64,000 bases of DNA from Diabrotica undecimpunctata (lineage: Eukaryota > Arthropoda > Insecta > Coleoptera > Chrysomelidae): assembly GCF_040954645.1 (NCBI RefSeq), contig NC_092807.1, positions 84,572,608 through 84,636,607 of the forward strand, in the 5' to 3' direction. The notes beneath the pieces are model-generated. The model made no database searches. It saw only the letters and a program-made list of their open reading frames with translations, and was not told the origin of the DNA. Made by a program: the position numbers and the translations under genes. Of the stretch, positions 17,131-54,595 are shown in pieces. Numbering within the stretch: position 1 is the stretch's first letter; every line of letters starts with the position of its first letter.

Positions 17131-17779
17131 TTCGCACATTATCTAATTCTGAGGTGAATTAATCCTCTTTTTCTCTGTTTTTGTTACAATTTATTATGAG
17201 TCTAGAGAGATTTTGTTACATGTCTTCATTTCCTTTTATTTTTGCATGTAAACATGCACGTAAAAACGAACAGAAAACCCAATCGAATGATTCATGTATG
17301 TCTTAAAACAAACAGATGGTAAAAATTCTCTCCTTGGTCTCCCCTCCCTATTTCTCATTGACACCCATTGCCCATTAGTAAGACGAGTAGTTCCGATCAG
17401 AGATATTTTACATTTCTGGTTCCGATCCTAATATAGCTAAGAAACTAGAGGTGGGTCGTTGACATTTTTATCGGAACCGTTTTTCGTAAATTGTAACTAG
17501 TTGATTGTTTACCAGTAGTTTCAAATAAGCCAGTACACAAACATGTTGGCTATTATCGTTTATATGCATAAGTATTAAAGTCAAAGAAACTAACGAAGGA
17601 TATATTTATTATAACTTGAAAAATAAATTAAACAATACAAATAGTACTTACATTTACATTACACATTATTACACTTTTCTTGTTAACCGTGTTCTTCTTT
17701 TATTTAAAATTAAACCAGATTTTGAACATGTGTTCACAAGGAACAGATTTTGTTACAATACTACAATATTTTATGAATA

Positions 17780-18060
17780 TAGTGGTTAAGTTAGGATATA
17801 CCTGGCGATGGTTTTTCCACCACGGTAATGGACAGTTCCAATCTCCGTTCGAAATTTTTTGTGGGTAATATATCATCAGACAAATACATGTCGACTTCTT
17901 TTATATCTCTCGATACAGGTGTATGTTTAGATGAGTTATGTCCAATTAATTCATCAAAATACTCCATGGACTTAAGTCATCTTAACATTTTCTTTTTCTT
18001 GTACTGAAGTTTTTTTATAGAAGTAACCAGCTTCTTAATTCTCTCTTTTGTTTTTTATAA
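17780..18060 (-). pseudogene. hAT transposase C-terminal piece, inverted within the left arm
   Basis: On the - strand: KKLVTSIKK, EYFDELIGHNSS, HTPVSRDIKEVDMYLSDD, the C-terminal region of a ZBED-like hAT transposase. The sequence running on to about 17440 is the inverted counterpart of 19600-19790, the 3' flank of the main hAT copy. So the hAT 3' end is present at both sides of the element in opposite orientation. This piece keeps the RDIKEV..YLSDD block that the main copy has lost. Confidence 0.75.
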
Positions 18061-18195
18061 CTAGGTATTCTGATTAATGAATGAGTTTCGCTTTACGATT
18101 GATCTGCATTTTCGATTTCAAATCTTTATTGATAGTTCGTCAAAGGATTTATTTATTGTAAATATTCAATTAAGAATTATTTTTCTTAGTCAAAA

Positions 18196-19600
18196 TTATT
18201 GACCTAGTATAAGAATAATAATTTTATTTTCAAAAAATGCGCAATTGTAGAAGATGCAGCTTTTATGGTCCACTTTCTGAATATTGCAATGATTGAAACT
18301 TCTCCTGACGCATTCCTGTCCGTTTCGACTACTTCTACTACAAGTACTGACATACTGCCACCGCCACACAAGCGTCAAAAGGTAATGGATACTTCCATTA
18401 ATAAAAATATTAGTTTAGAACAAAAGAAACAAATAGACATGGATTTACTAAATCTATGCAAAGACTCGTTTCATCCGTTTTCCATAGTTGAAGAACGAGC
18501 TTTTAAAAAGTTTGCAGGGTGGATTCCTGGATATAAACCACCAACAAGAAAAACTTGTTCATTACGTCAGGTTCATTACTTCACTAACGTCAGGAATGTT
18601 ATATCAAAACTAAGCAAATTATTAGATCACAAGTTGTTAAAGAAGTAGAAAATATCTGTATTACTACTGACCTCTGGACATATAGAGTAACTGAGAGTTA
18701 CATCGCATTAACAGGACAATATTTAACCGAAAATTTAGAATTTAAAATGGTTTTATTAGGCTGCTGCCATTTTTCTGGAAACCATAATTCAGAAAAGATC
18801 GCTTTTGAAATTAGTGAAATTATTTCACTAATTTCAAATTTCAGTGTCTAAAAAAACACATTTCAAAAAAAGTACCTTATCTTTAGAAAGGCTTTTAAAG
18901 TATCAATTACAACATAACAAAGTTCCCAAACGGCCAATCCAAGACGTGGAAACTAGGTAGAACTTCACCTATTACATGTTAAAAAGAATGACCGAGTTAG
19001 AAGAGGCAATCCGTTCCACATTTGTATTAGCTAATACAGACTTAGACTTGGACCAAATCTAAATAATGAAGACTAGATTATTTGTTCTCAACTTTCCCAA
19101 ATTTTACGGCCTTTTAAATAAATAACAAGTACAATGAGTGGCCAAAAATACTTGAAGGGTAGTTCAGTGATTGTTATGGTACGCTGCCTGCAAGAATCTT
19201 GCAATAAAATTTTAGCAAACGGTAACCTTACATCCATAGTATCCGACGTAGTACAATTACTAATATCGTGTTTAGCAAAAAGATTTAGAGAGATAGAACA
19301 GAGTGGCACATTGTCATTATGTACATTTGTGGATTCACGATTTAAAGTGCAGGGATTTTCTGATAAAAATGCAGGTAAAAAAAACAAAAGAAAGAGTTAA
19401 GAAGCTGGTTACTTCTATAAAAAAAGAAAAAGAAGATTGTACTATTAAAAATCAACCAGTACAAGAAAAGGAAACCGATAAAGATGACTTAAGTCCATGG
19501 TGTATTTTTGAACAATTAATTGGACTCATCCTAACGTACACCTGTATCCCGATGTCGATTAAAATGGTGGAAAAACCATTGCCATGTATATCCTAACTTA
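18196..19600 (+). pseudogene. hAT transposase (ZBED-like), left arm
   Basis: Reads in several frames: FHPFSIVEERAFKKFAGWI and PGYKPPTRKT (18466-18560), CITTDLWTYRVTESYIALTG (about 18655-18715, containing the first catalytic Asp), CCHFSGNHNSEKIAFEI, then SLERLLKYQLQHNKVPK and DVETR.NFTYYMLKRMTELEEAIRS (18885-19015), and MSGQKYLKGSSVIVMVRCL, CLAKRFREIEQSGTLSL, FVDSRFKVQGFSDK (19134-19370), ending with KERVKKLVTSIKKE and a shortened C-terminal block. This is the RNase H-like hAT fold including the Trp-rich C-terminal region. The BED finger is not visible and at least four frame changes or stops are present. A 33-bp near-perfect palindrome lies inside it at 18804-18836. Confidence 0.88.
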
Positions 19601-19805
19601 ACCACTATATTCATAAAGTATTGTAAATGTGAATGTTTAGTTTATTTTTCAAGTTATAATAAATATATCCTTCATTAGTTTCTTTCACTTCAATAAATAT
19701 ACACATAAACGATAATAGTCATTATGTTTGTTTATATAGGTACTCTCTTACTTGAAACTACTATTAAACAATCATAGTTATTGATTACGAAAATCGGTTT
19801 AGTTG

Positions 19806-20213
19806 CGTTAAGAGCGTAGGCGCAAAATTTCGGGTCAATGCTTTTTAAATGTATTCATTTTTTTCGAATCCTGAGAAAACTAACAAATATTTTTGAAAAA
19901 TTTAAACGCAGAATGAAAGGTGACATTATTGCCGAAGGCCGAAAGTCCCTTAGAATAAACAAAAAGTTTCTTTGAATGAGATACTTAAAATTCAAAATCA
20001 CACTAAATTTTCTCTTTTTTCACCCCTGTAACTTATTAAAATAAACATTATAGAAGTTTTCAGAGACTTTCTTTCGGCCCTCGGTAATAATGTATTCTTT
20101 CATTCTGCGTTTAAATGTTTCAAAAATATTTATTAGTTTTCTCAGGATTCGAAAAAAAAAAAGAATGCATTTAAAAAGCATTTGCCCGAAATTTTGGGCC
20201 TACGCTCTTAACG
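19806..20213. mobile_element. MITE with about 150-bp terminal inverted repeats (left-arm copy)
   Basis: Begins cgttaagagcgtaggc and ends with its inverse, gcctacgctcttaacg. The arms include gaatcctgagaaaacta, aacgcagaatgaaag and a ggccgaaag block, mirrored in the second half, with about 100 bp of unique centre. No coding capacity. It sits directly at the 3' end of the hAT copy. Confidence 0.85.
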
Positions 20214-20736
20214 ATAAAAGACGTTGCCAAATAATTTCGTATGAAGGTTTATTTATTGTGGAGTTATATGCATTTTATTATTTTTATTGGAAATAAGGCA
20301 CAATGTGACTTTAAAATAAGCTTATTTTGATGTTTAGATTTTTAATTCGGAAATCGTACTTAAAATACGAATCATTATTAATTTTATTTATATAAAACGA
20401 TATCCAAAGTGGAAATCAAAATGTTATATTACACTTATTGTAAAGTAAAATTGTGGCATATTCCCAATAAAAAACAGTAAGCTGCCATTTAAATCCATTT
20501 CGCCCAAATTTGATTATCTTAGAACATTGTTCAAATGCTAAAAAGACAACAGGTCAAATAAAACCAATAAGTTTGGCAACGTTGAATTTCCCCTTTTTTA
20601 TTATTTCCACATGCTAGTTCGGGCGATTTAAAGGTTGGACCTAATATACCTCTCTCTTTTTAAACAGGTGTTTCTCACTCTATCTCACGTAAGCTCCATA
20701 CCGACCATAAACTTTTACCTATACTGTATATATGTA
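20214..20736. other. Spacer without gene
   Basis: AT-rich. An 11-bp inverted pair acgttgccaaa (20219) / tttggcaacgt (about 20573) may mark a short element. It contains tccaaagtggaaatc, which resembles the hairpin at 36846-36866. The segment ataccgaccataaactttta (about 20699) recurs upstream of the Penelope-like element at about 34046. The whole spacer is mirrored at about 29880-30383. Confidence 0.5.
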
Positions 20737-20741
20737 TATAT

Positions 20742-20808
<67 letters not shown>
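20737..20808. repeat. (TA)n microsatellite
   Basis: Alternating TA with a few TACA units at its start. Apparent tyrosine/isoleucine frames across it are meaningless. Confidence 0.95.
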
Positions 20809-20810
<2 letters not shown>

Positions 20811-20858
20811 AATAAGAAAAAAGAAGTACTTGTGACTCGTTTGGAACAAATATATAAC

Positions 20859-21303
20859 TGTTTTGGATGGGTTGGAGTCAATAAAAGGGCTATTGGTTAA
20901 CTATTTTTTTAATCTCGAGCTTTCAACTGTGTTTACAATTATTATCAAGAGCTAAAAAAGACAAAATATCTTACAGGGTTGAACTAAAAAGAAAAAACAA
21001 TTTTTTGTTAACTTACCAAATAAAAATTAGTTTAGTAAGTAAAAATTACTGCTAATACATTTTCAAAATAATTAATATAAAAATGTTTTAATCCAATAAA
21101 TGTTTCTCTGAAAATTTTTATAATTTTGAAAACATTTTTTTTAATACAAAAATAATTGAATTTATAAATAACTTATTTACAACCTTGTAAGATATTTTGT
21201 CTTTTTTAGCTCTTGATAATAATTGTAAACACAGTTGAAAGCTCGAGATTAAAAAAATAGTTAACCAATAGCCCTTTTATTGACTCCAACCCATCCAAAA
21301 CAG
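20859..21303 (-). mobile_element. Foldback MITE, copy M1
   Basis: Terminal inverted repeats of about 120 bp starting ctgttttggatgggttggag and ending with the inverse. The unique centre is in the opposite orientation to M2 and M3. Compared with them it carries about 13 extra bases near 21075. Both ends lie against TA-rich DNA. Non-coding. Confidence 0.9.

Positions 21304-21363
<60 letters not shown>
21304..21363. repeat. (TA)n microsatellite
   Basis: About 60 bp of pure TA between MITE M1 and inverted dimer 1. Confidence 0.95.
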
Positions 21364-21367
<4 letters not shown>

Positions 21368-21773
21368 TTCGTTGGGCTATTTAAGTTTTGCAGGATATTT
21401 AATGTGATATGGCTTTTGGAAATTTAGGTTTGTGTTGTTGGTGTCACTGGTTCTTATGTTTTCGGCGTTCAAATAAAGTCATTAATTTTGAGGTTATTTC
21501 TCATCATAAAAGCTTTCTCGGTAATTACAAAATCTCTATCAAAATAGATTTAGGAGTACTCTTTTTTTATGTATTTTAACCTTTACAACAATCCAACAGG
21601 AGTGTATTCTGATGTGAGGTGAATAGAAACATAATATTTACCATGTTCCCATTCACCCCAAACATTAGAAATTACTTTTATTTTTTTTGTTTATATAACA
21701 CCTACATAGAGTAAGATTTTTTTGTCAGTGGTTGCTCAATTTACTTTTTATTGTAATGAGTGTTTTATTACAG

Positions 21774-22992
21774 GTTATCGCAAATATGCTGCGAAAATAT
21801 CAAGCTGTGACAACTGTGAAGAAAGATCCTACACATGACAAAAAGTACAAGAAGCCCTAAATGAAATAAAAGAAGGTATTAGTTACAGACAGTGCTCCCT
21901 TAAGTATAATATACCTACTACGGTCTTACACAGATATCTAAAAAATGTTAATACAAAGCAAAAAGGAGGTCAGACCTCTCTTGATGAAGATGAAGAGTTA
22001 GTTCTCATTGACAGACTAGCAGTTTGTGTTGACTGGGGATACCCAATAGATTCTCTCACCTTACTGTTAATCGTACGAGAATATCTGGAGCGCCAGGGCA
22101 AAGTTATTTTCAAGTTCAAGAACAACACCCCTGCTCGGGATTGGCTGTATTCGTTTCTTATTCGGCACAAACAATCACTCTCAAACAGAATGTGTCAAAA
22201 CAGCAAAAGGTCGAGGGAAGCTGTGTTCACTGAGATAATTAATAAATATTTCTACGAGTTAGATGGAGAATTTAAAGACATTCCGTCAAGACACATCATC
22301 AACTATGATGAGACAAATCTTACTGATGACCCAGAAAAACGTAAAATAATTTTTAAACGAGGCTGCAAGTACCCAGAACGAGTTGTCAACTCATCAAAAG
22401 CGTCTACTTCCGTAATGTTTGCAGCTAGTAGAGAAGGTAAAATATTACCACTTTTACACATTAGGTTGTATATAAAGCTCAACATTTATACGACAGTTGA
22501 AAAGAGGGAGGTCCAAAAAACTCTCGTTTTAATCGTACGAAGTCAGGTTGGTTTGATAGTTTTTGTTTCAGTGACTGGGTTCAGCCCATTGCAATTACCT
22601 TTTTCAAGGACATAGAAGGAAAAAAAAAATACTTTATTGGGGACAACTTATCGTCTCACTTGTCAATCGATTTAATCCAATTGTGCCAAGAAAAAAACAT
22701 CAAATTTATATTTTTACGAAGTAATTCCACTCACCTTATTCAGCTCTTCGATGTGACATTCCTAAGATCCATGAAGATTACGTGGCGCAAAATAGTTGAG
22801 AAATGGAAAACAGGACCAGGTAGGAATGAATCCACAGTAGCTAAAAACAAGTTTCCTATACTATTAAAGAAATTGGTTAAAAGTCTTTCAGAGGAAAATG
22901 GCAAATCGGGGTTTAAAAAATGTGGCATCGTGCCTTTGGATCGCGCCAAAGTCCTAAGGATGCTGCTACACTTAGACAATGATAATACATAA
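21774..22992 (+). pseudogene. pogo-like DDE transposase pseudogene, copy P1
   Basis: Likely coding start just after a tttattacag acceptor-like site at 21773: MLRKYQAV, then after a frameshift near 21835 KVQEALNEIKEGISYRQ (HTH), DRLAVCVDWGYPIDSL (CENP-B-like region), NYDETNLTDDPEKRK (first catalytic Asp, about 22300). A second shift near 22462 leads to a frame with WFDSFCFSDWVQPIAITFF and a TGA stop where the reading implies Trp (about 22497). Then FIGDNLSSHLS (second Asp, about 22640), THLIQLFDVTFLRSMK (third Asp, about 22750) and a GFKKCGIVPLDRAKV C-terminus. The family is the pogo/Tigger type with a CENP-B-like N-terminus. P1 has private changes, for example Thr for Pro after AVF and Arg in place of Met near 22465. 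Confidence 0.9.
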
Positions 22993-23336
22993 TACCAGAC
23001 AATCTGTAACACAACCGCCTTTGTCAGGTTCTGTTTACTTGGAAAGGATTGAAGACACTTTTAAAGAACTTTTGAAGACATTCTGATACTCAGATATAAA
23101 AGAAAAAGAAAGCAAAAATTAATGTCGAACCGGGAAAAAGTGTTGTGGCGACAGATTTCTTCCTTCTTCTAAATCTGTCGCCACAACACTTTTTCCCGGT
23201 TCGACATTAATTTTTGCTTTCTTTTTCTTTTATATCTGAGTATCAGAATGTCTTCAAAAGTTCTTTAAAAGTGTCTTCAATCCTTTCCACGTAAACAGAA
23301 CCTGACAAAGGCGGTTGTGTTACAGATTGGCTGGTA

Positions 23337-24554
23337 TTATGTATTATCATTGTCTAAGTGTAGCAGCATCCTTAGGACTTTGGCGCGATCCAAAGGCACG
23401 ATGCCACATTTTTTAAACCCCGATTTGCCATTTTCCTCTGAAAGACTTTTAACCAATTTCTTTAATAGTATAGGAAACTTGTTTTTAGCTACTGTGGATT
23501 CATTCCTACCTGGTCCTGTTTTCCATTTCTCAACTATTTTGCGCCACGTAATCTTCATGGATCTTAAGAATGTCACATCGAAGAGCTGAATAAGGTGAGT
23601 GGAATTACTTCGTAAAAATATAAATTTGATGTTTTTTTCTTGGCACAATTGGATTAAATCGATTGACAAGTGAGACGATAAGTTGTCCCCAATAAAGTAT
23701 TTTTTTTTCCTTCTATGTCCTTGAAAAAGGTAATTGCAATGGGCTGAACCCAGTCACTGAAACAAAAACTATCAAACCAACCTGACTTCGTACGATTAAA
23801 ACGAGAGTTTTTTGGACCTCCCTCTTTTCAACTGTCATATAAATGTTGAGCTTTATATACAACATAATGTGTAAAAGTGGTAATATTTTACCTTCTCTAC
23901 TAGCTGCAAACATTACGGAAGTAGACGCTTTTGATGAGTTGACAACTCGTTCTGGGTACTTGCAGCCACGTTTAAAAATTATTTTACGTTTTTCTGGGTC
24001 ATCAGTAAGATTTGTCTCATCATAGTTGATGATGTGTCTTGACGGAATGTCTTTAAATTCTCCATCTAACTCGTAGAAATATTTATTAATTATCTCAGGG
24101 AACACAGCTTCCCTTGACCTTTTGCTCTTTTGACACATTCTGTTTGAGAGTGATTGTTTGTGCCGAATAAGAAACGAATACAGCCAATCCCGAGCAGGGG
24201 TGTTGTTCTTGAACTTGAAAATAACTTTGCCCTGGCGCTCCAGATATTCTCGTACGATTAACCGTAAGGTGAGAGAATCTATTGGGTATCCCCAGTCAAC
24301 ACAAACTGCTAGTCTGTCAATGAGAACTAACTCTTCATCTTCATCAAGAAAGGTCTGACCTCCTTTTTGCTTTGTATTAACATTTTTTAGATATCTGTGT
24401 AAGACCGTAGTAGGTATATTATACTTAAGGGAGCACTGTCTGTAACTAATACCTTCTTTTATTTCATTTAGGGCTTCTTGTACTTTTTGTCATGTGTAGG
24501 ATCTTTCTTCACAGTTATCACAGCTTGATATTTTCGCAGCATATTTGCGATAAC
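23337..24554 (-). pseudogene. pogo-like DDE transposase pseudogene, copy P2
   Basis: Mirror of P1 around 23164.5, with the same two frameshifts and the same TGA. Private changes include Met in the NIYMTV segment, Lys in place of Arg near the third Asp (SLKN on the antisense reading), and an A-to-G type change giving SRKV on the antisense strand near 24352. Shares Lys in MCQKSK and the tcaaggg variant with P3, but shares loop-proximal variants (taaacgt..., agccaatctg on its coding strand) with P4. Confidence 0.9.
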
Positions 24555-24960
24555 CTGTAATAAAACACTCATTACAATAAATAGTAAATTGAGCAACCAC
24601 TGACAAAAAAATCTTACTCTATGTAGGTGTTATATAAACAAAAAAAATAAAAGTAATTTCTAATGTTTGGGGTGAATGGGAACATGGTAAATATTATGTT
24701 TCTATTCACCTCACATCAGAATACACTCCTGTTGGATTGTTGTAAAGGTTAAAATACATAAAAAAAGAGTACTCCTAAATCTATTTTGATAGAGATTTTG
24801 TAATTACCGAGAAAGCTTTTATGATGAGAAATAACCTCAAAATTAATGACTTTATTTGAACGCCGAAAACATAAGAACCAGTGACACCAACAACACAAAC
24901 CTAAATTTCCCAAAGCCATATCACATTAAATATCCTGCAAAACTTAAATAGCCCAACGAA

Positions 24961-24965
<5 letters not shown>

Positions 24966-25048
<83 letters not shown>
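24966..25048. repeat. (TA)n microsatellite
   Basis: About 80 bp of pure TA between dimer 1 and the central MITE M2. Confidence 0.95.
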
Positions 25049-25479
25049 CTGTTTTGGATGGGTTGGAGTCAATAAAAGGGCTATTGGTTAACTATTTTTT
25101 TAATCTCGAGCTTTCAACTGTGTTTACAATTATTATCAAGAGCTAAAAAAGACAAAATATCTTACAAGGTTGTAAATAAGTTATTTATAAATTCAATTAT
25201 TTTTGTATTAAAAAAAATGTTTTCAAAATTATAAAAATTTTCAGAGAAACATTTATTGGATTAAAATTATTTTGAAAATGTATTAGCAGTAATTTTTACT
25301 TACTAAACTAATTTTTATTTGGTAAGTTAACAAAAAATTGTTTTTTCTTTTTAGTTCAACCTTGTAAGATATTTTGTCTTTTTTAGCTCTTGATAATATT
25401 TGTAAACACAGTTGAAAGCTCGAGATTAAAAAAATAGTTAACCAATAGCCCTTTTATTGACTCCAACCCATCCAAAACA

Positions 25480-25480
<1 letters not shown>
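25049..25480 (+). mobile_element. Foldback MITE, copy M2 (symmetry axis of the palindrome)
   Basis: 432 bp with about 120-bp terminal inverted repeats of the same family as M1 and M3. Its middle (about 25264) coincides with the axis of the surrounding palindrome, calculated from the mirrored pseudogene ends (22190/28334 and 23337/27187 both give about 25262). Only its unique centre, about 190 bp, breaks the symmetry. Orientation is the same as M3. Confidence 0.92.

Positions 25481-25561
<81 letters not shown>
25481..25561. repeat. (TA)n microsatellite
   Basis: About 80 bp of pure TA between M2 and inverted dimer 2; near the length of the tract on the other side of M2. Confidence 0.95.
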
Positions 25562-25565
<4 letters not shown>

Positions 25566-25970
25566 TTCGTTGGGCTATTTAAGTTTTGCAGGATATTTAA
25601 TGTGATATGGCTTTGGGAAATTTAGGTTTGTGTTGTTGGCGTCACTGGTTCTTATGTTTTCGGCGTTCAAATAAAGTCATTAATTTTGAGGTTATTTCTC
25701 ATCATAAAAGCTTTCTCGGTAATTACAAAATCTCTATCAAAATAGATTTAGGAGTACTCTTTTTTTATGTATTTTAACCTTTACAACAATCCAACAGGAG
25801 TGTATTCTGATGTGAGGTGAATAGAAACATAATATTTACCATGTTCCCATTCACCCCAAACATTAGAAATTACTTTTATTTTTTTGTTTATATAACACCT
25901 ACATAGAGTAAGATTTTTTTGTCAGTGGTTGCTCAATTTACTTTTTATTGTAATGAGTGTTTTATTACAG

Positions 25971-27187
25971 GTTATCGCAAATATGCTGCGAAAATATCAA
26001 GCTGTGACAACTGTGAAGAAAGATCCTACACATGACAAAAAGTACAAGAAGCCCTAAATGAAATAAAAGAAGGTATTAGTTACAGACAGTGCTCCCTTAA
26101 GTATAATATACCTACTACGGTCTTTCACAGATATCTAAAAAATGTTAATACAAAGCAAAAAGGAGGTCAGACCTCTCTTGATGAAGATGAAGAGTTAGTT
26201 CTCATTGACAGACTAGCAGTTTGTGTTGACTGGGGATACCCAATAGATTCTCTCACCTTACGGTTAATCGTACGAGAATATCTGGAGCGCCAGGGCAAAG
26301 TTATTTTCAAGTTCAAGAACAACACCCCTGCTCGGGATTGGCTGTATTCGTTTCTTATTCGGCACAAACAATCACTCTCAAACAGAATGTGTCAAAAGAG
26401 CAAAAGGTCAAGGGAAGCTGTGTTCCCTGAGATAATTAATAAATATTTCTACGAGTTAGATGGAGAATTTAAAGACATTCCGTCAAGACACATCATCAAC
26501 TATGATGAGACAAATCTTACTGATGACCCAGAAAAACGTAAAATAATTTTTAAACGTGGCTGCAAGTACCCAGAACGAGTTGTCAACTCATCAAAAGCGT
26601 CTACTTCCGTAATGTTTGCAGCTAGTAGAGAAGGTAAAATATTACCACTTTTACACATTATGTTGTATATAAAGCTCAACATTTATACGACAGTTGAAAA
26701 GAGGGAGGTCCAAAAAACTCTTGTTTTAATCGTACGAAGTCAGGTTGGTTTGATAGTTTTTGTTTCAGTGACTGGGTTCAGCCCATTGCAATTACCTTTT
26801 TCAAGGACATAGAAGGAAAAAAAATACTTTATTGGAGACAACTTATCGTCTCACTTGTCAATCGATTTAATCCAATTGTGCCAAGAAAAAAACATCAAAT
26901 TTATATTTTTACGAAGTAATTCCACTCACCTTATTCAGCTCTTCGATGTGTCATTCCTAAGATCCATGAAGATTACGTGGCGCAAAATAGTTGAGAAATG
27001 GAAAACAGGACCAGGTAGGAATGAATCCACAGTAGCTAAAAACAAGTTTCCTATACTATTAAAGAAATTGGTTAAAAGTCTTTCAGAGGAAAATGGCAAA
27101 TCGGGGTTTAAAAAATGTGGCATCGTGCCTTTGGATCGCGCCAAAGTCCTGAGGATGCTGCTACACTTAGACAATGATAATACATAA
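25971..27187 (+). pseudogene. pogo-like DDE transposase pseudogene, copy P3
   Basis: Same architecture and the same frameshifts and TGA as P1. The homopolymer before YFIGD is 8 A here, against 10 in P1 and P4 and 9 in P2. Private changes: tctttcacag for tcttacacag near 26122, Ser for Thr in FDVSFLRSMK (about 26950), an A in ggagac near 26837. Shares MCQKSK with P2 and loop-proximal variants with P1. Confidence 0.9.
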
Positions 27188-27531
27188 TACCAGACAATCT
27201 GTAACACAACCGCCTTTGTCAGGTTCTGTTTACTTGGAAAGGATTGAAGACACTTTTAAAGAACTTTTGAAGACATTCTGATACTCAGATATAAAAGAAA
27301 AAGAAAGCAAAAATTAATGTCGAACCGGGAAAAAGTGTTGTGGCGACAGATTTCTTCCTTCTTCTAAATCTGTCGCCACAACACTTTTTCCCGGTTCGAC
27401 ATTAATTTTTGCTTTCTTTTTCTTTTATATCTGAGTATCAGAATGTCTTCAAAAGTTCTTTAAAAGTGTCTTCAATCCTTTCCACGTAAACAGAACCTGA
27501 CAAAGGCGGTTGTGTTACAGATTGGCTGGTA

Positions 27532-28750
27532 TTATGTATTATCATTGTCTAAGTGTAGCAGCATCCTTAGGACTTTGGCGCGATCCAAAGGCACGATGCC
27601 ACATTTTTTAAACCCCGATTTGCCATTTTCCTCTGAAAGACTTTTAACCAATTTCTTTAATAGTATAGGAAACTTGTTTTTAGCTACTGTGGATTCATTC
27701 CTACCTGGTCCTGTTTTCCATTTCTCAACTATTTTGCACCACGTAATCTTCAAGGATCTTAGGAATGTCACATCGAAGAGCTGAATAAGGTGAGTGGAAT
27801 TACTTCGTAAAAATATAAATTTGATGTTTTTTTCTTGGCACAATTGGATTAAATCGATTGACAAGTGAGACGATAAGTTGTCCCCAATAAAGTATTTTTT
27901 TTTTCCTTCTATGTCCTTGAAAAAGGTAATTGCAATGGGCTGAACCCAGTCACTGAAACAAAAACTATCAAACCAACCTGACTTCGTACGATTAAAACGA
28001 GAGTTTTTTGGACCTCCCTCTTTTCAACTGTCGTATAAATGTTGAGCTTTATATACAACATAATGTGTAAAAGTGGTAATATTTTACCTTCTCTACTAGC
28101 TGCAAACATTACGGAAGTAGACGCTTTTGATGAGTTGACAACTCGTTCTGGGTACTTGCAGCCACGTTTAAAAATTATTTTACGTTTTTCTGGCTCATCA
28201 GTAAGATTTTTCTCATCATAGTTGATGATGTGTCTTGACAGAATGTCTTTAAATTCTCCATCTAACTCGTAGAAATATTTATTAATTATCTCAGGGAACA
28301 CAGCTTCCCTCGACCTTTTGCTGTTTTGACACATTCTGTTTGAGAGTGATTGTTTGTGCCGAATAAGAAACGAATACAGCCAATCCCGAGCAGGGGTGTT
28401 GTTCTTGAACTTGAAAATAACTTTGCCCTGGCGCTCCAGATATTCTCGTACGATTAACCGTAAGGTGAGAGAATCTATTGGGTATCCCCAGTCAACACAA
28501 ACTGCTAGTCTGTCAATGAGAACTAACTCTTCATCTTCATCAAGAGAGGTCTGACCTCCTTTTTGCTTTGTATTAACATTTTTTAGATATCTGTGTAAGA
28601 CCGTAGTAGGTATATTATACTTAAGGGAGCACTGTCTGTAACTAATACCTTCTTTTATTTCATTTAGGGCTTCTTGTACTTTTTGTCATGTGTAGGATCT
28701 TTCTTCACAGTTGTCACAGCTTGATATTTTCGCAGCATATTTGCGATAAC
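27532..28750 (-). pseudogene. pogo-like DDE transposase pseudogene, copy P4
   Basis: Mirror of P3 around 27359.5 and of P1 around the palindrome axis, with the shared frameshifts and TGA. Private changes: Leu for Pro (DILSRH), Lys for Thr (DEKNL), Glu for Asp (TDEPEK), Leu for Met and Cys for Arg near the third catalytic Asp (RSLKITWCK). Shares MCQNSK and the tcgaggg variant with P1. Confidence 0.9.
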
Positions 28751-29155
28751 CTGTAATAAAACACTCATTACAATAAAAAGTAAATTGAGCAACCACTGAC
28801 AAAAAAATCTTACTCTATGTAGGTGTTATATAAACAAATAAAATAAAAGTAATTTCTAATGTTTGGGGTGAATGGGAACATGGTAAATATTATGTTTCTA
28901 TTCACCTCACATCAGAATACACTCCTGTTGGATTGTTGTAAAGGTTAAAATACATAAAAAAGAGTACTCCTAAATCTATTTTGATAGAGATTTTGTAATT
29001 ACCGAGAAAGCTTTTATGATGAGAAATAACCTCAAAATTAATGACTTTATTTGAACGCCGAAAACCTAAGAACCAGTGACACCAAGAACACAAACCTAAA
29101 TTTCCCAAAGCCATATCACATTAAATATCCTGCAAAACTTAAATACCCCAACGAA

Positions 29156-29160
<5 letters not shown>

Positions 29161-29227
<67 letters not shown>
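29161..29227. repeat. (TA)n microsatellite
   Basis: About 65 bp of TA between dimer 2 and MITE M3. Confidence 0.95.
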
Positions 29228-29659
29228 CTGTTTTGGATGGGTTGGAGTCAATAAAAGGGCTATTGGTTAACTATTTTTTTAATCTCGAGCTTTCAACTGT
29301 GTTTACAATTATTATCAAGAGCTAAAAAAGACAAAATATCTTACAAGGTTGTAAATAAGTTATTTATAAATTCAATTATTTTTGTATTAAAAAAAATGTT
29401 TTCAAAATTATAAAAATTTTCAGAGAAACATTTATTGGATTAAAATTATTTTGAAAATGTATTAGCAGTAATTTTTACTTACTAAACTAATTTTTATTTG
29501 GTAAGTTAACAAAAAATTATTTTTTCTTTTTAGTTCAACCTTGTAAGATATTTTGTCTTTTTTAGCTCTTGATAATAATTGTAAACACAGTTGAAAGCTC
29601 GAGATTAAAAAAATAGTTAACCAATAGCCCTTTTATTGACTCCAACCCATCCAAAACAG
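29228..29659 (+). mobile_element. Foldback MITE, copy M3
   Basis: 432 bp, nearly identical to M2 and in the same orientation; the mirror partner of M1. Confidence 0.9.
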
Positions 29660-29708
29660 TTATATATTTGTTCCAAACGCGAGTCACAAGTACTTCTTTT
29701 TTCTTATT

Positions 29709-29711
<3 letters not shown>

Positions 29712-29774
<63 letters not shown>

Positions 29775-29878
29775 TATATGCATATATATATGTATGTATA
29801 TATATACATATATACAGTATAGGTAATATATATGCATATATATATGTATGTATATATATACATATATACAGTATAGGT
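29712..29878. repeat. (TA)n tract followed by a 53-bp tandem duplication
   Basis: Pure TA to about 29768, then two copies of a unit with tatatgcatatatatatgta ... cagtataggt (about 29770-29824 and 29825-29878). The left arm has a single counterpart at about 20718-20760, so the duplication is specific to the right arm. Confidence 0.8.
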
Positions 29879-30383
29879 AAAAGTTTAGGGTCGGTATGGA
29901 GCTTACGTGAGATAGAGTGAGAAACACCTGTTTAAAAAGAGAGAGGTATATTAGGTCCGCCCTTTAAATCGCCCGAACTAGCATGAGTGGAAATAATAAA
30001 AAAGGGGAAATTCAACGTTGCCAAACTTATTGGTTTTATTTGACCTGTTGTCTTTTTAGCATTTGAACAATGTTCTAAGATAATCAAATTTGGGCGAAAT
30101 GGATTTAAATGGCAGTTTACTGTTTTTTATTGGGAATATGCCACAATTTTACTTTACAATAAGTGTAATATAACATTTTGATTTCCACTTTGGATATCGT
30201 TTTATATAAATAAAATTAATAATGATTCGTATTTTAAGTACGATTTCCGAATTAAAAATCTAAACATCAAAATAAGCTTATTTTAAAGTCACATTGTGCC
30301 TTATTTCCAATAAAAATAATAAAATGCATATAACTCCACAATAAATAAACCTTCATACGAAATTATTTGGCAACGTCTTTTAT
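29879..30383. other. Spacer without gene (mirror of 20214-20736)
   Basis: Reverse complement of the left-arm spacer with a few substitutions. No gene seen. Confidence 0.5.
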
Positions 30384-30789
30384 CGTTAAGAGCGTAGGCC
30401 CAAAATTTCGGGCAAATGCTTTTTAAATGCATTCTTTTTTTTTCGAATCCTGAGAAAACTAATAAATATTTTTGAAACATTTAAACGCAGAATGAAAGAA
30501 TACATTATTACCGAGGGCCGAAAGAAAGTCTCTGAAAACTTCTATAATGTTTATTTTAATAAGTTACAGGGGTGAAAAAAGAGAAAATTTAGTGTGATTT
30601 TGAATTTTAAGTATCTCATTTAAAGAAACTTTTTGTTTATTCTAAGGGACTTTCGGCCTTCGGCAATAATGTCACCTTTCATTCTGCGTTTAAATTTTTC
30701 AAAAATATTTGTTAGTTTTCTCAGGATTCGAAAAAAATGAATACATTTAAAAAGCATTGACCCGAAATTTTGCGCCTACGCTCTTAACG
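30384..30789. mobile_element. MITE with about 150-bp terminal inverted repeats (right-arm copy)
   Basis: Mirror of 19806-20213, same boundaries (cgttaagagcgtag ... ctacgctcttaacg). Confidence 0.85.
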
Positions 30790-31137
30790 CAACTAAACCG
30801 ATTTTCGTAATCAATAACTATGATTGTTTAATAGTAGTTTCAAGTAAGAGAGTACCTACATAAACAAACATAATGACTATTATCGTTTATGTGTATATTT
30901 ATTGAAGTGAAAGAAACTAATGAAGGATATATTTATTATAACTTGAAAAATAAACTAAACAATACAAATAGTAAATCGTACTTACATTTACATTACACGT
31001 TATTATTAAATCGCGAATCGTCTAAATTGACATTTAAAAACGTAAGTTTTTCTACTTTACTTCTTATTAACCGTGTTCTTCTTTTATTTAAAATTAAACC
31101 TTCACATTTACAATACTTTATGAATATAGTGGTTAAG

Positions 31138-32580
31138 TTAGGATATACATGGCAATGGTTTTTCCACCATTTTAATCGACATCGGGATACAGGTGTACGT
31201 TAGGATGAGTCCAATTAATTGTTCAAAAATACACCATGGACTTAAGTCATCTTTATCGGTTTCCTTTTCTTGTACTGGTTGATTTTTAATAGTACAATCT
31301 TCTTTTTCTTTTTTTATAGAAGTAACCAGCTTCTTAACTCTTTCTTTTGTTTTTTTTACCTGCATTTTTATCAGAAAATCCCTGCACTTTAAATCGTGAA
31401 TCCACAAATGTACATAATGACAATGTGCCACTCTGTTCTATCTCTCTAAATCTTTTTGCTAAACACGATATTAGTAATTGTACTACGTCGGATACTATGG
31501 ATGTAAGGTTACCGTTTGCTAAAATTTTATTGCAAGATTCTTGCAGGCAGCGTACCATAACAATCACTGAACTACCCTTCAAGTATTTTTGGCCACTCAT
31601 TGTACTTGTTATTTATTTAAAAGGCCGTAAAATTTGGGAAAGTTGAGAACAAATAATCTAGTCTTCATTATTTAGATTTGGTCCAAGTCTAAGTCTGTAT
31701 TAGCTAATACAAATGTGGAACGGATTGCCTCTTCTAACTCGGTCATTCTTTTTAACATGTAATAGGTGAAGTTCTACCTAGTTTCCACGTCTTGGATTGG
31801 CCGTTTGGGAACTTTGTTATGTTGTAATTGATACTTTAAAAGCCTTTCTAAAGATAAGGTACTTTTTTTGAAATGTGTTTTTTTAGACACTGAAATTTGA
31901 AATTAGTGAAATAATTTCACTAATTTCAAAAGCGATCTTTTCTGAATTATGGTTTCCAGAAAAATGGCAGCAGCCTAATAAAACCATTTTAAATTCTAAA
32001 TTTTCGGTTAAATATTGTCCTGTTAATGCGATGTAACTCTCAGTTACTCTATATGTCCAGAGGTCAGTAGTAATACAGATATTTTCTACTTCTTTAACAA
32101 CTTGTGATCTAATAATTTGCTTAGTTTTGATATAACATTCCTGACGTTAGTGAAGTAATGAACCTGACGTAATGAACAAGTTTTTCTTGTTGGTGGTTTA
32201 TATCCAGGAATCCACCCTGCAAACTTTTTAAAAGCTCGTTCTTCAACTATGGAAAACGGATGAAACGAGTCTTTGCATAGATTTAGTAAATCCATATCTA
32301 TTTGTTTCTTTTGTTCTAAACTAATATTTTTATTAATGTATCTAATGTACTAATATTTTTATTTATGTAATGTATGTAACTAAGTATCCATTACCTTTTG
32401 ACGCTTGTGTGGCGGTGGCAGTATGTCAGTACTTGTAGTAGAAGTAGTCGAAACGGACAGGAATACGTCAGGAGAAGTTTCAATCATTGCAATATTCAGA
32501 AAGTGGACCATAAAAGCTGCATCTTCTACAATTGCGCATTTTTTGAAAATAAAATTATTATTCTTATACTAGGTCAATAA
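31138..32580 (-). pseudogene. hAT transposase (ZBED-like), right arm
   Basis: Mirror of 18196-19600: the blocks MSGQKYLKGSS, CLAKRFREIEQSGTLSL and FVDSRFKVQGFSDK at 31334-31600, and FHPFSIVEERAFKKFAGWI at about 32190-32250. The same frame breaks are present. About 50 bp are inserted or amplified near 32335-32385, splitting the frame that is intact at the N-terminus of the left copy. The 3' flank at 30980-31100 keeps about 120 bp lost from the left arm. Confidence 0.88.
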
Positions 32581-32719
32581 TTTTGACTAAGAAAAATAAT
32601 TCTTAATTGAATATTTACAATAAATAAATCCTTTGACGAACTATCAATAAAGATTTGAAATCGAAAATGCAGATCAATCGTAAAGCGAAACTCATTCATT
32701 AATCAGAATACCTAGTTAT

Positions 32720-33010
32720 AAAAAACAAAAGAGAGAATTAAGAAGCTGGTTACTTCTATAAAAAAACTTCAGTACAAGAAAAAGAAAATGTTAAGATGAC
32801 TTAAGTCCATGGAGTATTTTGATGAATTAATTGGACATAACTCATCTAAACATACACCTGTATCGAGAGATATAAAAGAAGTCGAGATGTATTTGTCTGA
32901 TGATAAATTACCCACAAAAAATTTCGAACGGAGATTGGAACTGTCCATTACCGTGGTGGAAAAACCATCAGGTATATCCTAACTTAACCACTATATTCAT
33001 AAAATATTGT
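32720..33010 (+). pseudogene. hAT transposase C-terminal piece, inverted within the right arm
   Basis: Mirror of 17780-18060. EYFDELIGHNSS, HTPVSRDIKEVEMYLSDD and LELSITVVEKPS are readable on the + strand. It shows a Glu where the left piece has Asp in KEV(D/E)MYL. Confidence 0.75.
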
Positions 33011-33485
33011 AGTATTGTAACAAAATCTGTTCCTTGTGAACACATGTTCAAAATCTGGTTTAATTTTAAATAAAAGAAGAACACGGTTAACAAGAAAAGT
33101 GTAATAATGTGTAATGTAAATGTAAGTACTATTTGTATTGTTTAATTTATTTTTCAAGTTATAATAAATATATCCTTCGTTAGTTTCTTTGACTTTAATA
33201 CTTATGCATATAAACGATAATAGCCAACATGTTTGTGTACTGGCTTATTTGAAACTACTGGTAAACAATCAACTAGTTACAATTTACGAAAAACGGTTCC
33301 GATAAAAATGTCAACGACCCACCTCTAGTTTCTTAGCTATATTAGGATCGGAACCAGAAATGTAAAATATCTCTGATCGAAACTACTCGTCTTACTAATG
33401 GGCAATGGGTGTCAATGAGAAATAGGGAGGGGAGACCAAGGAGAAATATGATTGTTATCTTTGTCTATTCGCTGAAAATATGCTT

Positions 33486-34010
33486 TTATTCGCTCCGTGC
33501 GTGACCATGGTAGGGGTACCTTGAAACGATGCCAGCGTGCGTAGCGGCGAAATATGACAAAATTGGAATCATGGAATCTTTTTACGCATAAATTTTATTA
33601 AAAATGTGTGCAAATACATGTTGCGTATTTAATTGTGCTAATAATAGCAAAAATAGTAAGTGTAGTTTTTATAGGTTCCCAAAGATTGCATATAAATTGG
33701 AGAAAAGAAAAAGATGGATCCGTGCTTGAAAAAACTTGATTTGCCAGTACTAGATTTTTCCCTTTCTTTTCCGTTTGGGGTTAAAAAGATATATTATGAT
33801 GAATTTTGAGAAACCCAGTTTTTAATACTACATTTATTTTGTACATAAACTGAAAAAATATAATTAAAAAGTTAATTATTAATAAATGTCAATTTCGCCT
33901 GTATTTAACAATGTCAAATATATGTCATATGTTTAACCTGAAAATTGGTAGGTCCAAAACAGTCAGATGAAGGCGGTAGGTGTCACGTCAGTCACGCACG
34001 GAGCGAATAT
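33486..34010 (+). mobile_element. Short TIR element flanked by TA, carrying a THAP-like ORF
   Basis: Ends are attcgctccgtgcgtgac (33488-33505) and its exact inverse (33991-34008). Taking ttcgctccg as the terminus, TA lies directly outside on both sides, as for TA-targeting DNA transposons. About 520 bp long. It lies about 40 bp outside the giant palindrome and has no mirror copy there. The superfamily is unknown. Confidence 0.65.
33604..33729 (+). CDS. THAP-like zinc-finger mini-ORF (41 aa, truncated)
   Basis: The frame MCANTCCVFNCANNSKNSKC continues into SFYRFPKIAYKLEKRKRWIRA and stops. The early Cys pairs (CCVFNC), the RFP motif and a Trp in KRW.RA match the first half of the THAP (C2CH) DNA-binding domain; the second C..H pair and the AVPTIF-like end are missing after the stop at 33727-33729. 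THAP domains occur in P-element-type transposases and in host regulators. Here it lies within a small TIR element, so a captured or leftover transposase N-terminus is likely. Whether it is expressed cannot be seen. Confidence 0.55.
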   Translation: MCANTCCVFNCANNSKNSKCSFYRFPKIAYKLEKRKRWIRA

Positions 34011-34096
34011 CTGTGTTAGATATCCTGTTAAATTTTACCATACCGACCATAAACTTTTACCTACACTGTATATATAAAGATGGACCAACCTGACTG

Positions 34097-41670: not shown

Positions 41671-41867
41671 AGTTAAGAAACCAGAACTGCTAATTCAACT
41701 ATAATAAAAGGACAGCGTCAGCAAGCCACACCTCGGCGTCACCGAGCTTATAAATTTACTTTTGCATTGTATAGCGTCACTCTTATTTTGCATTTTACTG
41801 TAGTAAGTAGTCCCTTGTAAATAAAGTTCTTTTTTAAAAATATCGTTCTTGGACTTAGAAACATCAT
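41671..41867 (+). repeat. Gypsy-1 5' LTR
   Basis: Begins agttaagaaaccagaactgc and ends acatcat just before the primer site. Contains a polyadenylation signal in AATAAAGTTCTTTTTTAAAA (about 41820-41839), a block also present in the Gypsy-2 LTR. Confidence 0.93.
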
Positions 41868-41884
41868 TGGCGCAGTCAGTACAG
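41868..41884 (+). promoter_or_regulatory. Gypsy-1 primer binding site
   Basis: TGGCGCAGTCAGTACAG follows the LTR directly. It resembles the tRNA-Ser-type site of the 17.6/297 group (known from that group; not searched). Confidence 0.75.
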
Positions 41885-42011
41885 ATTTTCGGGAATTACG
41901 TCGCTAACCGTTACAAAAATCGAACCGTTTCGCGTAGTTTTTCGTTTTAACGATTTACCGGAAAACCGAACCTTTTGTGAAAGTGTCCAAGATCAGCTTT
42001 AGACAAGGTAT

Positions 42012-42122
42012 CACCAAGACCTGGGGAAAGAACAAAATCGTCGAACCCTAGAGGCAGCAGATTTAAGCAGTAGTTTCAACAAGACCTGGGAGAAGAACAA
42101 AATCGTCGAATCCTATAGGCAG
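42012..42122 (+). repeat. Gypsy-1 leader: duplicated 46-bp motif
   Basis: Units 42012-42057 and 42077-42122, each with c(a/c)aagacctggg, aagaacaaaatcgtcgaa and ggcag, differing at a few positions. Gypsy-2 has an unrelated but equally placed leader duplication. Confidence 0.85.
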
Positions 42123-42124
42123 AA

Positions 42125-42153
42125 ATGCTGAAAATCTACATTTTAATGTAAGT
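42125..42153 (+). promoter_or_regulatory. Gypsy-1 leader mini-ORF and splice donor
   Basis: ATG at 42125 opens a frame of seven codons plus two bases that runs into GTAAGT (GT at 42148). The Gypsy-2 leader has the same layout and the same phase. In Gypsy-1 the matching env acceptor region appears deleted. Confidence 0.55.
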
Positions 42154-42412
42154 GTTTCCTATTTTTTCCATTTTATTTTCCATTTTATTATTTCCGTATT
42201 TGAAAATACTTATAGTCAGAGAGCTAACGAAAGTAAACAATTTTTAAAGGTTTTAATTTATGAGATATTTTTAATAAGAGAAAGATTATTATTACTATAT
42301 TATATTATCATATTTTTGAAAATATTTTATTATATTGAAGTTTTATATTGAAACATATTTTATATTTTATTAGAATTTGATATATTATCTCAATAAAAAG
42401 AATAAATATTTA

Positions 42413-43772
42413 ATGAGTGAAACTGATAGTAAATTAGATTTAAGTAGCCTTGTAGCAGAATTAAATTCAATTTTAGAACCAAATAGCGATAAAAATAACA
42501 TAATGGCTCAAACAAACTATCAATTGTTAAAACTTTACTTAGATTCTATCCCAGCATATGATGGTAATCCACATACCTTAACCATATTTATAGACAATTG
42601 TGAAAATTTAATAACTAATTTTGCTAGCCAAACAGACGGCACCTTAAACACATTTTTACTTCGAGCTATATTAGGTAAATTAAATGGAAGAGCTCAAATG
42701 TTAATAGGTTCTAGGACAGAATTAAATACATGGCAACTCGTAAAAGATGCCCTTAATCTTAGTTTTGGAGACCAGAGAGATCTCGATTGCCTTATCCAAG
42801 ACCTGATAACGTTGAGGCCTTTCAAGAATGAAACCCCTTATAATTTTGGCATGCGATGCCAAGAAACACGTAGTTTAGTAACACAAAAATTAAATACGCT
42901 TAATATTAATGCACAAGAGAAATTAATTAGAATAAATAGTTACGATGACTTTGTTTAAATGTTTAAAAACTTACATTAGAGGCTTACCCTTATCGTTACA
43001 AACAAATATACGATTGAGAAACCCAGACAGTTTAGAGAAAGCTATGAGCTTCGTTATCGAAGAAGAGAATTTTCTATATTCATTACAACGTGGAAATAAT
43101 TTAAACTCACAAAATTCTTTTAGACCGTCATCGAGACATAATCCTACGAGAAACAGTAATCTTAATCGAACTTTTATTCCTAGAAATAATTTTCAACAAA
43201 ATCGCCCTAATATGAGATTTCCACCTTACCAATATCAAACCATCAGACCGCAATACCAAAATAATAATTTTTATCCCAACAATACTTTTCAACCACACCA
43301 AAATCACTTCCGAAATTTCAATAATTATAATTCTAATTTCAACCCAAGAAATTTCGATAATAATAATTCTAATTTCCGACCATGGAACTTCCATACTAAT
43401 AACCCTAATTTTCAACAAAGAAATGTTAATAATAAACCCCAAAATCAAAATCAATACCAGCCAGAACCGATGGATACAAATTCACGAAATACTTCTTTAA
43501 GATCTAGACCACATTTTACCTCCACCCAATTATTTAATGAACATATTAATAACGATCAAATACAATTCAAAAACCCCTTTGAAAATAATATTCCCACTGA
43601 TTACGTACACCCAACTCAAAGTTCATTACCGCCTTACGATAACAATTATGAAACTCAATCCAGTCCTTATCGCAATCCAAATGAGACAAACGAAAGATCA
43701 TATCACAATTCCACTCAAAATGTTGAAAACACAAATTTTTACATGCGCCAAGAAAATTACAATCCGACATAA
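42413..43772 (+). pseudogene. Gypsy-1 gag (frameshifted)
   Basis: First part from the ATG at 42413 (MSETDSK...) to the stop at 42958, with capsid-like LPTYDGNP-type wording (IPAYDGNPHTLTIFIDNCEN), LSFGDQRDLDCLIQDL and FKNETPYNFGMRCQ. A +1 change of frame near 42945 leads into the second part (YIRGLPLSLQTNIRLRNP), followed by a long Asn/Pro/Gln/Arg-rich tail to 43772. Compared with Gypsy-2 gag there is no CCHC zinc knuckle. Gypsy-2 is continuous at the point of the break, so the break is a lesion. Confidence 0.85.
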
Positions 43773-45688
43773 TATATTTAAATACAACGATAGCAGATTT
43801 ACCACATATTATTATTCCTGAACTCAATGCCAGATTTTTATTAGATACAGGGTCTTCCAAAAGTTTGATATCTCCACAGTTAGCGCATAAATTTTATAAA
43901 AATTTTATTTCTTACGAAAGTTTTAATATACAAACGGCTCACGGAATTTCTATGCACAATGAAATAATTAATATTCCAGCTTTTAACATTTTTAAAGTAA
44001 ATCAATATAATAAGTTTTATGTTTTTAAATTTAGCGAAAATTTCGATGGATTAATTGGTATAGATTTATTACAAAAATTAAAAGCTTCAATTAATGTCAA
44101 CGCGCGACAAATGAAAACGCCTTATGTAACGATACCCATAATTTTTGAACCCAGTAAAAAGAATATGTTATATCCCAAATCAACTTTTAATCATACAATA
44201 ATTATTCCCCCTAGAACTAAGCAAATAGTCAAAATACCGGTAAAATTAAATGTAGGATTAGGTATATTAGAATATAAGAATTTCGGTAAAGGAATCGAAA
44301 TGCCTAAAGCAGTAGTTAACGTGAAAAATAATTTTGCTATAACCACTATTACGAATATAAGCGAATATAAGACAACGTTAAGTATTACTGAACCCTTTAA
44401 TATAGAACCATTAGATATAGTAAATATTAATTTTATAAGAAAGATGGAAACTGATGAAGAAACGTCTATTAATGATGATAACATGTTAAAGAGGAATTTA
44501 AAAAATATAACGATAAATCATTGTAACAAAGAAGAAAGAGAATTACTAAAAAAGCTTTGTTTCCAATATAGAGACATATTTTATTGCGAAGGAATACCCT
44601 TAAGTTTTACTAATAGTATTAAACATAAAATTAAACTCACTGATAATTCTGCAATATATACAAAAACATATCGTTTCCCGGAAGTTCACCGAGAAGAAGT
44701 TAAATCCCAAATAAATAAGATGTTAGCAGAAGGTATAATAGAAGACAGCAATTCCCCATTTTCGAGTCCCATTTGGGTGGTCCCGAAAAAACAAGATGCT
44801 AGCAATTTTGCAATTGGAGCTGTATTATCACAAGGAAATGTTCCAAATGATCGACCCATTGCATACGCCTCGAGAACTCTAAATAAATCAGAGACAAATT
44901 ATTCAACTATAGAAAAGGAGCTATTAGCAATTGTATGGGCCTGTAAACATTTTAGACCATACCTTTACGGAAGAAAATTTTATATTTACACGGATCACAA
45001 ACCATTATCTTGGCTTTTCAGTCTAAAGGAGCCAAACTCAAAATTAATACGATGGCGTCTAAAACTAGAAGAATACGATTACAAAATTATGTATAAAAAA
45101 GGAAAACACAACACAAACGCAGACTGTTTATCTCGCATTACAATTAACGCATTAGAAGATGAATCAATAGTAAATAATCCTGGAGACGTAGACGAAGATA
45201 TTTTAAAATACCTCCAAAATTTTGCAGAGAATCCATTAGACCCACAACCTTCAACAAGTAACAATAACGACTCAAGAAAAATTAACATTATTTCTGATAT
45301 AAGAATACCTCCAGACAAAATAGATACACCAGACGAAACCTCAGATGAATCTACACAACATTCAACCGCAAATGAAACAACGAATCAAGGAATACCCATT
45401 TTAGATGAAATAATAAATAACAAAGTTCACCAAATTTTAGTGTACCCAAACGTTTACCCAAAAACCGATATAACTCATGAAACTTATCAAAACCATAAAA
45501 TAATTAAAGTCAAAATTCCTGAAACTGATAATGAAAAATATATTTTTGAATTTCTTATGACATACATAGATCTTAACAATACATTTTATTTATATTTCAG
45601 TAAAGACAACCTGTATAATGATTTTAATAAGTATTATCTAAAACATTTTTCTGAGCATGGTCCGAAACTATTAAATGCACTAGATTAA
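43766..45688 (+). pseudogene. Gypsy-1 pol: protease and RNase H, RT core deleted in frame
   Basis: Overlaps gag in the -1 frame. Protease active site [11 protein letters not shown] at about 43836-43868 and [10 protein letters not shown] at about 44045. The RT begins ([34 protein letters not shown], to about 44803) and then jumps in frame to [12 protein letters not shown], the RNase H start. All palm motifs, including the YxDD box, are missing, about 260 residues compared with Gypsy-2. RNase H continues with [18 protein letters not shown] and [10 protein letters not shown], then [10 protein letters not shown], then a poorly conserved tether to 45688. The open frame itself is uninterrupted across the junction. 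Confidence 0.92.
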
Positions 45689-45689
45689 T

Positions 45690-48146: not shown

Positions 48147-48318
48147 TTCAACTATAATAAAAGGACAGCGTCAGCAAGCCACACCTCGGCGTCACCGAGC
48201 TTATAAATTTACTTTTGCATTGTATAGCGTCACTCTTATTTTGCATTTTACTGTAGTAAGTAGTCCCTTGTAAATAAAGTTCTTTTTTAAAAATATCGTT
48301 CTTGGACTTAAAAACATC

Positions 48319-48320
<2 letters not shown>
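48124..48320 (+). repeat. Gypsy-1 3' LTR
   Basis: 197 bp, one visible difference from the 5' LTR, followed directly by a TA tract. Confidence 0.93.
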
Positions 48321-48367
<47 letters not shown>

Positions 48368-48429: not shown

Positions 48430-48433
<4 letters not shown>

Positions 48434-48757
48434 ATATGAGAAAATATTAACCTTGAACTAGCTTAAGTTCGCCGACTTCAGATTTCATCATCCCATTCCC
48501 ATAGAAACCGCTGAGCACGCATTAGAACTTTGTACGAACCGTTGGCCAATATTCATGGGAACAGCAATTCAGCACTTCATACCAAACATATAAATTACCA
48601 TTCTCAGATGCCGGAACCACTCTTAGCTGCAACTTCGACCAGTCCAGTTATTGTAGTCATTTTAAATTAATTTAATTTTGTACTATTATTTAATATTTAA
48701 TTTGTAACAAATAAAGTTCTTTTTTAAAAAGTCAAATACGTGATTAGTGATCTAACA
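48430..48757 (+). repeat. Gypsy-2 5' LTR
   Basis: Starts tgttatatgagaaaatatta, ends gtgatctaaca-type sequence at 48757. AATAAA signal near 48711 within the block shared with the Gypsy-1 LTR. Confidence 0.95.
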
Positions 48758-48759
48758 AT

Positions 48760-48777
48760 TGGCGCAAAGTCAGTAGG
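48760..48777 (+). promoter_or_regulatory. Gypsy-2 primer binding site
   Basis: TGGCGCAAAGTCAGTAGG, two bases after the LTR; similar to the Gypsy-1 site with an AA insertion, tRNA-Ser-like. Confidence 0.7.
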
Positions 48778-48863
48778 ATCCGGTTAACGTTGCTAGAACA
48801 CGTGTATACTCACTGGCAGCGGCGGATTCTCATCCCTTAACGGAACAAAGAATCTACGGAAGT

Positions 48864-49030: not shown

Positions 49031-49038
49031 GCGTCCCG

Positions 49039-54593: not shown

Positions 54594-54595
54594 TT

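Follow-up and report, generated by a model that had tools for sequence, protein, structure and literature searches.

How a palindrome of 16 kb, made up of transposons that are themselves set in inverted pairs, came to stand in a beetle genome is the question raised by a locus of Diabrotica undecimpunctata that lies within the window analysed here (64,000 nt; C5:84,572,608-84,636,607 of a 1.74-Gb genome, in which copies were sought genome-wide). A sequence-only reading had taken the layout for a hierarchically mirrored element; the orientation of its loops and of its miniature inverted-repeat transposable elements (MITEs), together with shared derived changes, indicates instead a fold-back product that was duplicated in tandem. 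The locus is best explained as the scar of a chromosome break and fold-back rather than as a new kind of mobile element, and we put at roughly 0.77 the probability that it represents one fold-back copy, followed by a tandem duplication of the core and then by mutation and conversion.

Layout of the inverted locus

Self-comparison of the window shows that the stretches 17,325-18,394, 18,396-19,643, 19,634-20,814 and 20,728-25,179 are found again on the opposite strand, as far as position 33,447, at 98-99.8%, which bears out the long inverted repeats (17,325-33,447) that had been proposed; with E = 0, a chance origin was dismissed. The window contains no N. From left to right the locus comprises the left arm, MITE copy M1, a dimer of pogo-like units around a loop (U1-loop-U2), MITE copy M2, a second such dimer (U3-loop-U4), MITE copy M3 and the right arm, and the outer flanks of the two arms differ from each other. 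The same self-comparison reveals a 4.4-kb direct repeat (21,173-25,564 and 25,351-29,761; 97.7%), on the basis of which the stretch 21,173-29,761 (plus strand) is read as two tandem copies of a dimer plus MITE unit, with a period of about 4.18-4.20 kb. A palindromic unit placed twice in tandem gives the appearance of a larger palindrome and of mirror symmetry.

The turn point and the direction of copying

The unit U1 (21,363-23,158, plus strand) is pogo-like with its 3' part missing, and carries HTH_psq (5.6e-5) and DDE_1 (8.3e-10) domains in two overlapping frames, which places it among the pogo-like elements of Tc1/mariner; the named homologues of the protein come from insects, plus one from Hydra, and viral and species-representative genome contigs yielded no relative of the transposase. 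Its inverted partner U2 (23,171-24,965, minus strand) follows after the 12 nt of loop A (23,159-23,170). The second dimer repeats this arrangement, with U3 (25,561-27,353, plus strand) read as the tandem copy of U1, loop B (27,354-27,365), and U4 (27,366-29,160, minus strand) read as the tandem copy of U2. The inverted dimers with 12-nt loops had been recognized from the letters alone and stand as described. Both loops read CTTCCTTCTTCT on the plus strand, and are thus direct and not mirrored.

On the minus strand the dimer reads GGCGACAGATTT AGAAGAAGGAAG AAATCTGTCGCC, and loop A continues the pogo gene after GGCGACAGATTT. All 18 distinct monomers read elsewhere in the genome run on past the turn point, 17 of them with AGAA... 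and one (L057) with AAAAG...; three (L005-L007) match one another for about 700 bp past the point where U stops, and many rows of the pogo match table extend into the loop. In unrearranged monomers the 12-nt spacer is thus contiguous with the U2/U4 arm; as the monomers do not end at the turn, these 12 nt represent a remnant of the gene, and the U2/U4 side, on the right, is the original. Judged from these aligned copies, the loop is a continuation of the gene, and the direct orientation of the loops and of M2 and M3 is equally plain.

A second and independent character comes from the outer arms. On the right, self-comparison, arm alignment and the continuation of the family define an outer arm (29,777-33,447, minus strand; the original side) that belongs to a complete transposon (29,869-34,068, minus strand; the original copy), recognized by its terminal repeats, its homology to 8 genomic copies, and its ends and flanks. 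This transposon has 31-bp terminal inverted repeats, beginning CAGTGTAGG and CAGTATAGG, at 34,038-34,068 and 29,869-29,899, with TA-type flanks and a degenerate gene remnant. The left outer arm (17,325-20,814, plus strand), which we read as the fold-back copy of the right arm, retains the inner terminal repeat only (20,696-20,726); it is truncated within the transposon at 17,328/17,329, where the copied arm ends without a target-site duplication against an unrelated flank. For the family to which the 132 bp at the end of the arm belong, a first look gave 1,069 candidates, of which 40 were scored; beyond the arm end (33,445), the right-flank sequence is present in 18/18 outside copies read and the left-flank sequence in 0/18. 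The right arm therefore runs into a transposon terminus, whereas a new junction closes the left arm. Two genome searches with the left flank (about 16.4-17.3 kb), in each of which 40 candidates were scored and common words were skipped by the search tool, gave no match but the flank itself. Microhomology at the left junction was considered and is not claimed. Taken together, the loop continuity and the right arm that completes its transposon are two independent characters from which the copy direction can be read as right to left.

The outer ends of the palindrome were also considered as transposon termini, and this was rejected because the family continues outward on the right. The idea that the locus is a composite mobile element, transposing as a 16-kb palindrome by means of identical ends, gains something from the same sequence being carried at both outer ends, yet these ends fall inside a transposon that extends further on the right, no target-site duplication was found at the outer palindrome ends when one was looked for, and a continuous transposase frame is present in none of the four U copies. 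The search for the same architecture elsewhere in the genome, which the sequence-only reading had suggested, also came back empty: a dimer with two separate inverted arms was seen at 0/34 other pogo-family places in the match table (for 16 of them by the table entry only; the pogo match at C7:64984191 and C7:18088162 ends before the turn is reached). A single rearrangement event would be expected to leave this pattern, a mobile element would not. We give the composite element almost no credence.

The identity of the outer transposon deserves comment, as it had been described as a hAT element with its 3' end on both sides; it is complete on the right and cut at 17,328 on the left, and its ends, with 31-bp repeats and TA-type flanks, differ from those to be expected of a hAT element, whose marks are hAT domains and an 8-bp duplication. 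Distant homologues of its gene remnant carry PF02892 or PF04937, which we take to be zf-BED and DUF659, accessions usual for hAT proteins, and a Pfam scan of the remnants returned no family above the cut-off, hAT included. A hAT lodged inside an element of the TA-inserting kind is one possible reading of these remnants. Two further features lie in it. A stretch of 517 bp with inverted ends TCGCTCCGTGCGTGAC (33,490-34,006) occupies the terminal part of the right transposon, and since the family resumes at 34,007 directly after 33,489 in 7/8 longer copies (the eighth, L082, has no match there), it is an insertion on the right. A self-inverted repeat of 400 bp (about 79%) is present in both arms (19,806-20,213 and 30,384-30,789). 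In the left arm it is bounded by TTAA, and some relatives of the outer transposon match it in part.

Probable tandem duplication of the core

A single mirror about 25,263, around which the whole set had been said to be reflected, was rejected: loop B would then be the reverse complement of loop A, yet the two are identical, and the MITEs are not mirrored, with M1 (20,857-21,304) on the plus strand and both M2 (25,048-25,481) and M3 (29,227-29,660) on the minus strand. M2 and M3 have in common a deletion of 14 nt, whereas M1 keeps the ancestral segment, which is also present in 17/18 other genomic MITE copies compared (L022 has a different, overlapping gap). The inverted arms claimed for the MITEs (120-150 bp) proved to be 126-139 bp long. 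As to the family at large, copies reach about 40-50 bp further left than the region 20,808-21,304 in 6/8 of those printed, 13/18 other copies match M1 over about its first 319 bp only and then diverge, and L023-L026, which possess both inverted arms, differ in their inner part.

The pogo-like units can be ordered by derived changes in the same way. Eighteen monomers were added to the U alignment, of which 7 aligned poorly (57-76% identity); the remaining 11, to which the U copies are about 83-90% identical, served for a recount of the polarity of 20 columns. At 65 of 1,756 sites the four U copies have a state in common that is absent from these 11 monomers, which supports, within this alignment, the descent of all four from one local ancestor. 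Within the four, column 1657 has a derived C in U2 and U4 and column 1697 a derived T in U1 and U3, and at both columns the ancestral state is held by 11/11 well-aligned monomers, and by all 18. The direct loops, the deletion in M2 and M3 and columns 1657 and 1697 all pair the copies as a tandem duplication does, with three columns disagreeing.

These three columns (859, 871 and 1278) instead show mirror pairing, of U1 with U4 against U2 with U3, and head the observations that weigh against a tandem duplication. Column 859 has a derived G in U2 and U3, 871 is of weaker polarity, and 1278 is a difference in poly-A length. The tandem model needs a conversion tract on account of the mirror-pairing columns, and a short one would explain columns 859-871. 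Column 1420 groups U1, U3 and U4 and leaves U2 alone with the ancestral base, and column 100 has the commoner base in U3 alone; neither fits either model simply. Further points tell against the preferred reading. Two query pieces of about 700 bp from the pogo 3' remainder gave no convincing match in the window (best E 0.018 or worse; the best matches are short and AT-rich), so that more sequence would have to have been lost at the junction. By analogy with yeast, a repair machinery in good order would not be expected to leave a 12-nt loop, since intact Mre11/Sae2 suppresses short-loop hairpins there, and proficient strains have a median loop of 35.5 nt (PMC7467729). The singleton rate per lineage is about 2x higher in the U units than in the outer arms (25/~7,000 against 12/~6,720 bp; two-sided p 0.049, with lengths entered by us), an excess that is unexplained.

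The mirror-pairing columns would be accounted for by two successive fold-backs, the first at the pogo loop and the second at M2, which is a hairpin itself with arms of about 126 bp; this would have produced a true mirror about 25,263, in which crossing-over between the two arms of one dimer core flipped that core at a later time. The flip is, however, required to explain loop B and columns 1657 and 1697, and conversion is required in addition for a 14-nt deletion limited to M2 and M3, so that more events are needed than in the tandem model. We regard two fold-backs as unlikely.

Divergence between the arms

Library making and assembly are known to have trouble with long palindromes, and the locus might be the product of an assembler or of chimeric molecules that expanded or misjoined something simpler (one dimer or one arm); the divergence of the U units, which exceeds that of the outer arms, could be taken in the same sense. 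The arms themselves speak otherwise. Over roughly 3.4 kb the outer arms differ by 12 substitutions past the arm's first base, and by indels of 42, 139 and 76 bp and four of 2-3 bp, as had been claimed from the letters. Set against 26 family rows, which represent 18 places with 8 entered twice (L079-L086 overlap eight of L061-L078), 7 substitutions are by our reading of the family majority derived on the right, 1 is derived on the left and 4 are ambiguous. By the same rows the 42 bp were inserted on the right, 23/26 having a gap at the first column of this segment. The left arm has probably lost the 139-bp segment: at its first column 8/26 rows have letters, 6 of those with the right-arm base, and the alignment is continuous across it in 4/8 longer copies (L081, L082, L084 and L086). 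A further 25 singleton substitutions are spread over the four U copies.

Many polarisable sites are single-copy, private changes over a shared ancestor, and the argument that the differences between arms tell against simple read-through of one molecule holds. Polarised changes of this kind argue against a palindrome of purely technical origin, at least as far as an alignment can. The shared derived changes are moreover nested in a way that fits a history, the differing outer flanks and the lack of N point in the same direction, and the places scored (40 of 1,856 candidates; 37/37 in a second search) offered no near-identical second pogo unit. An assembly product thus seems to us improbable, and more so than a second fold-back.

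Proposed sequence of events

The ancestral locus on the right, read leftward on the minus strand, would have consisted of the complete outer transposon, a TA repeat, MITE M, a TA repeat and the pogo-like element. A break within the pogo gene would have allowed the 3' end to fold back over a 12-nt loop and, by way of a putative short inverted homology, prime synthesis. About 6.1 kb, comprising U, M and the greater part of the outer transposon, may in this way have been copied back, with a halt at the base now at 17,328. Joining of the copied end to an unrelated left flank would have given L-M-U-loop-U'-M'-R. In a second step the 4.2-kb unit of dimer (D) and M would have been duplicated in tandem, to render L-M1-D-M2-D-M3-R. 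This may most simply have come about by unequal crossing-over between the like-oriented MITE arms of M1 and M3, as these are direct repeats about 4.2 kb apart in a single-dimer palindrome and their exchange yields both the order and the flanks of M2. Later changes would have comprised point mutations, small indels and a short tract of conversion. The break, the hairpin, the polymerase step and the site of crossing-over are steps that we infer.

If this reconstruction is correct, the locus is an old fold-back in an animal genome of which the direction, the turn point, the copied length and the later duplication can be read from the sequence, thanks to the many reference copies of the transposons that it traversed. 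Loop continuity and a transposon-completing arm could be looked for in other long palindromes, as a means of telling biology from assembly error, and the same reading could measure how often germlines make fold-back copies. The double pogo palindrome might, if transcribed, give a long hairpin RNA matching about 34 genomic relatives, the 11 that align better at only about 83-90% identity, and serve as a source of small RNAs against them, a role that we consider very improbable.

Elsewhere in the window, two adjacent Ty3/gypsy-like elements (41,671-48,321 and 48,430-56,840) have envelope-type (Baculo_F) frames. The direct repeats that flank them, 198 bp (99.5%) and 328 bp (100%) long, resemble the long terminal repeat pairs of recent insertions.

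Comparison with known systems

Among titles and abstract openings we found none that describes this layout, which is not proof of absence. Foldback (FB) transposons carry long inverted repeats; unlike them, the present locus has no target-site duplication, no dispersed copies were seen, and its arms are built of other transposons.

In Saccharomyces cerevisiae, fold-back inversions arise from hairpins, with a short-loop class of <15 nt and stems down to 4 bp (PMC7467729). The locus resembles these in its inverted duplication around a short loop (12 nt) and in the secondary rearrangement that followed. The yeast cases are selected rearrangements of chromosome ends, with short loops mainly in mre11/sae2-defective strains (PMC7467729), whereas we describe an interstitial 6-kb copy among the transposons of an animal genome and a later tandem duplication. 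In human inverted duplications a single-copy spacer between the inverted copies likewise marks the fold-back loop, and measures 766-70,466 bp in 21 sequenced junctions; those duplications are Mb-scale in the table rows and often accompany terminal deletions (PMC3907307), against a 12-nt spacer and an arm of ~6 kb here. Interstitial inverted triplications, for which origin-dependent inverted-repeat amplification has been put forward (PMC4689423; see also DUP-TRP/INV-DUP, PMC4352052), are similar in placing extra inverted copies in a chromosome with the involvement of inverted repeats, but the present locus differs in having one inversion junction, a tandem repeat of the palindromic unit and one truncated arm end. 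On the evidence of its sequence the locus would appear to work like the yeast and human fold-backs, both of whose testable defining features it displays, and may thus be counted as a further example of a known fold-back process and not as a new system.

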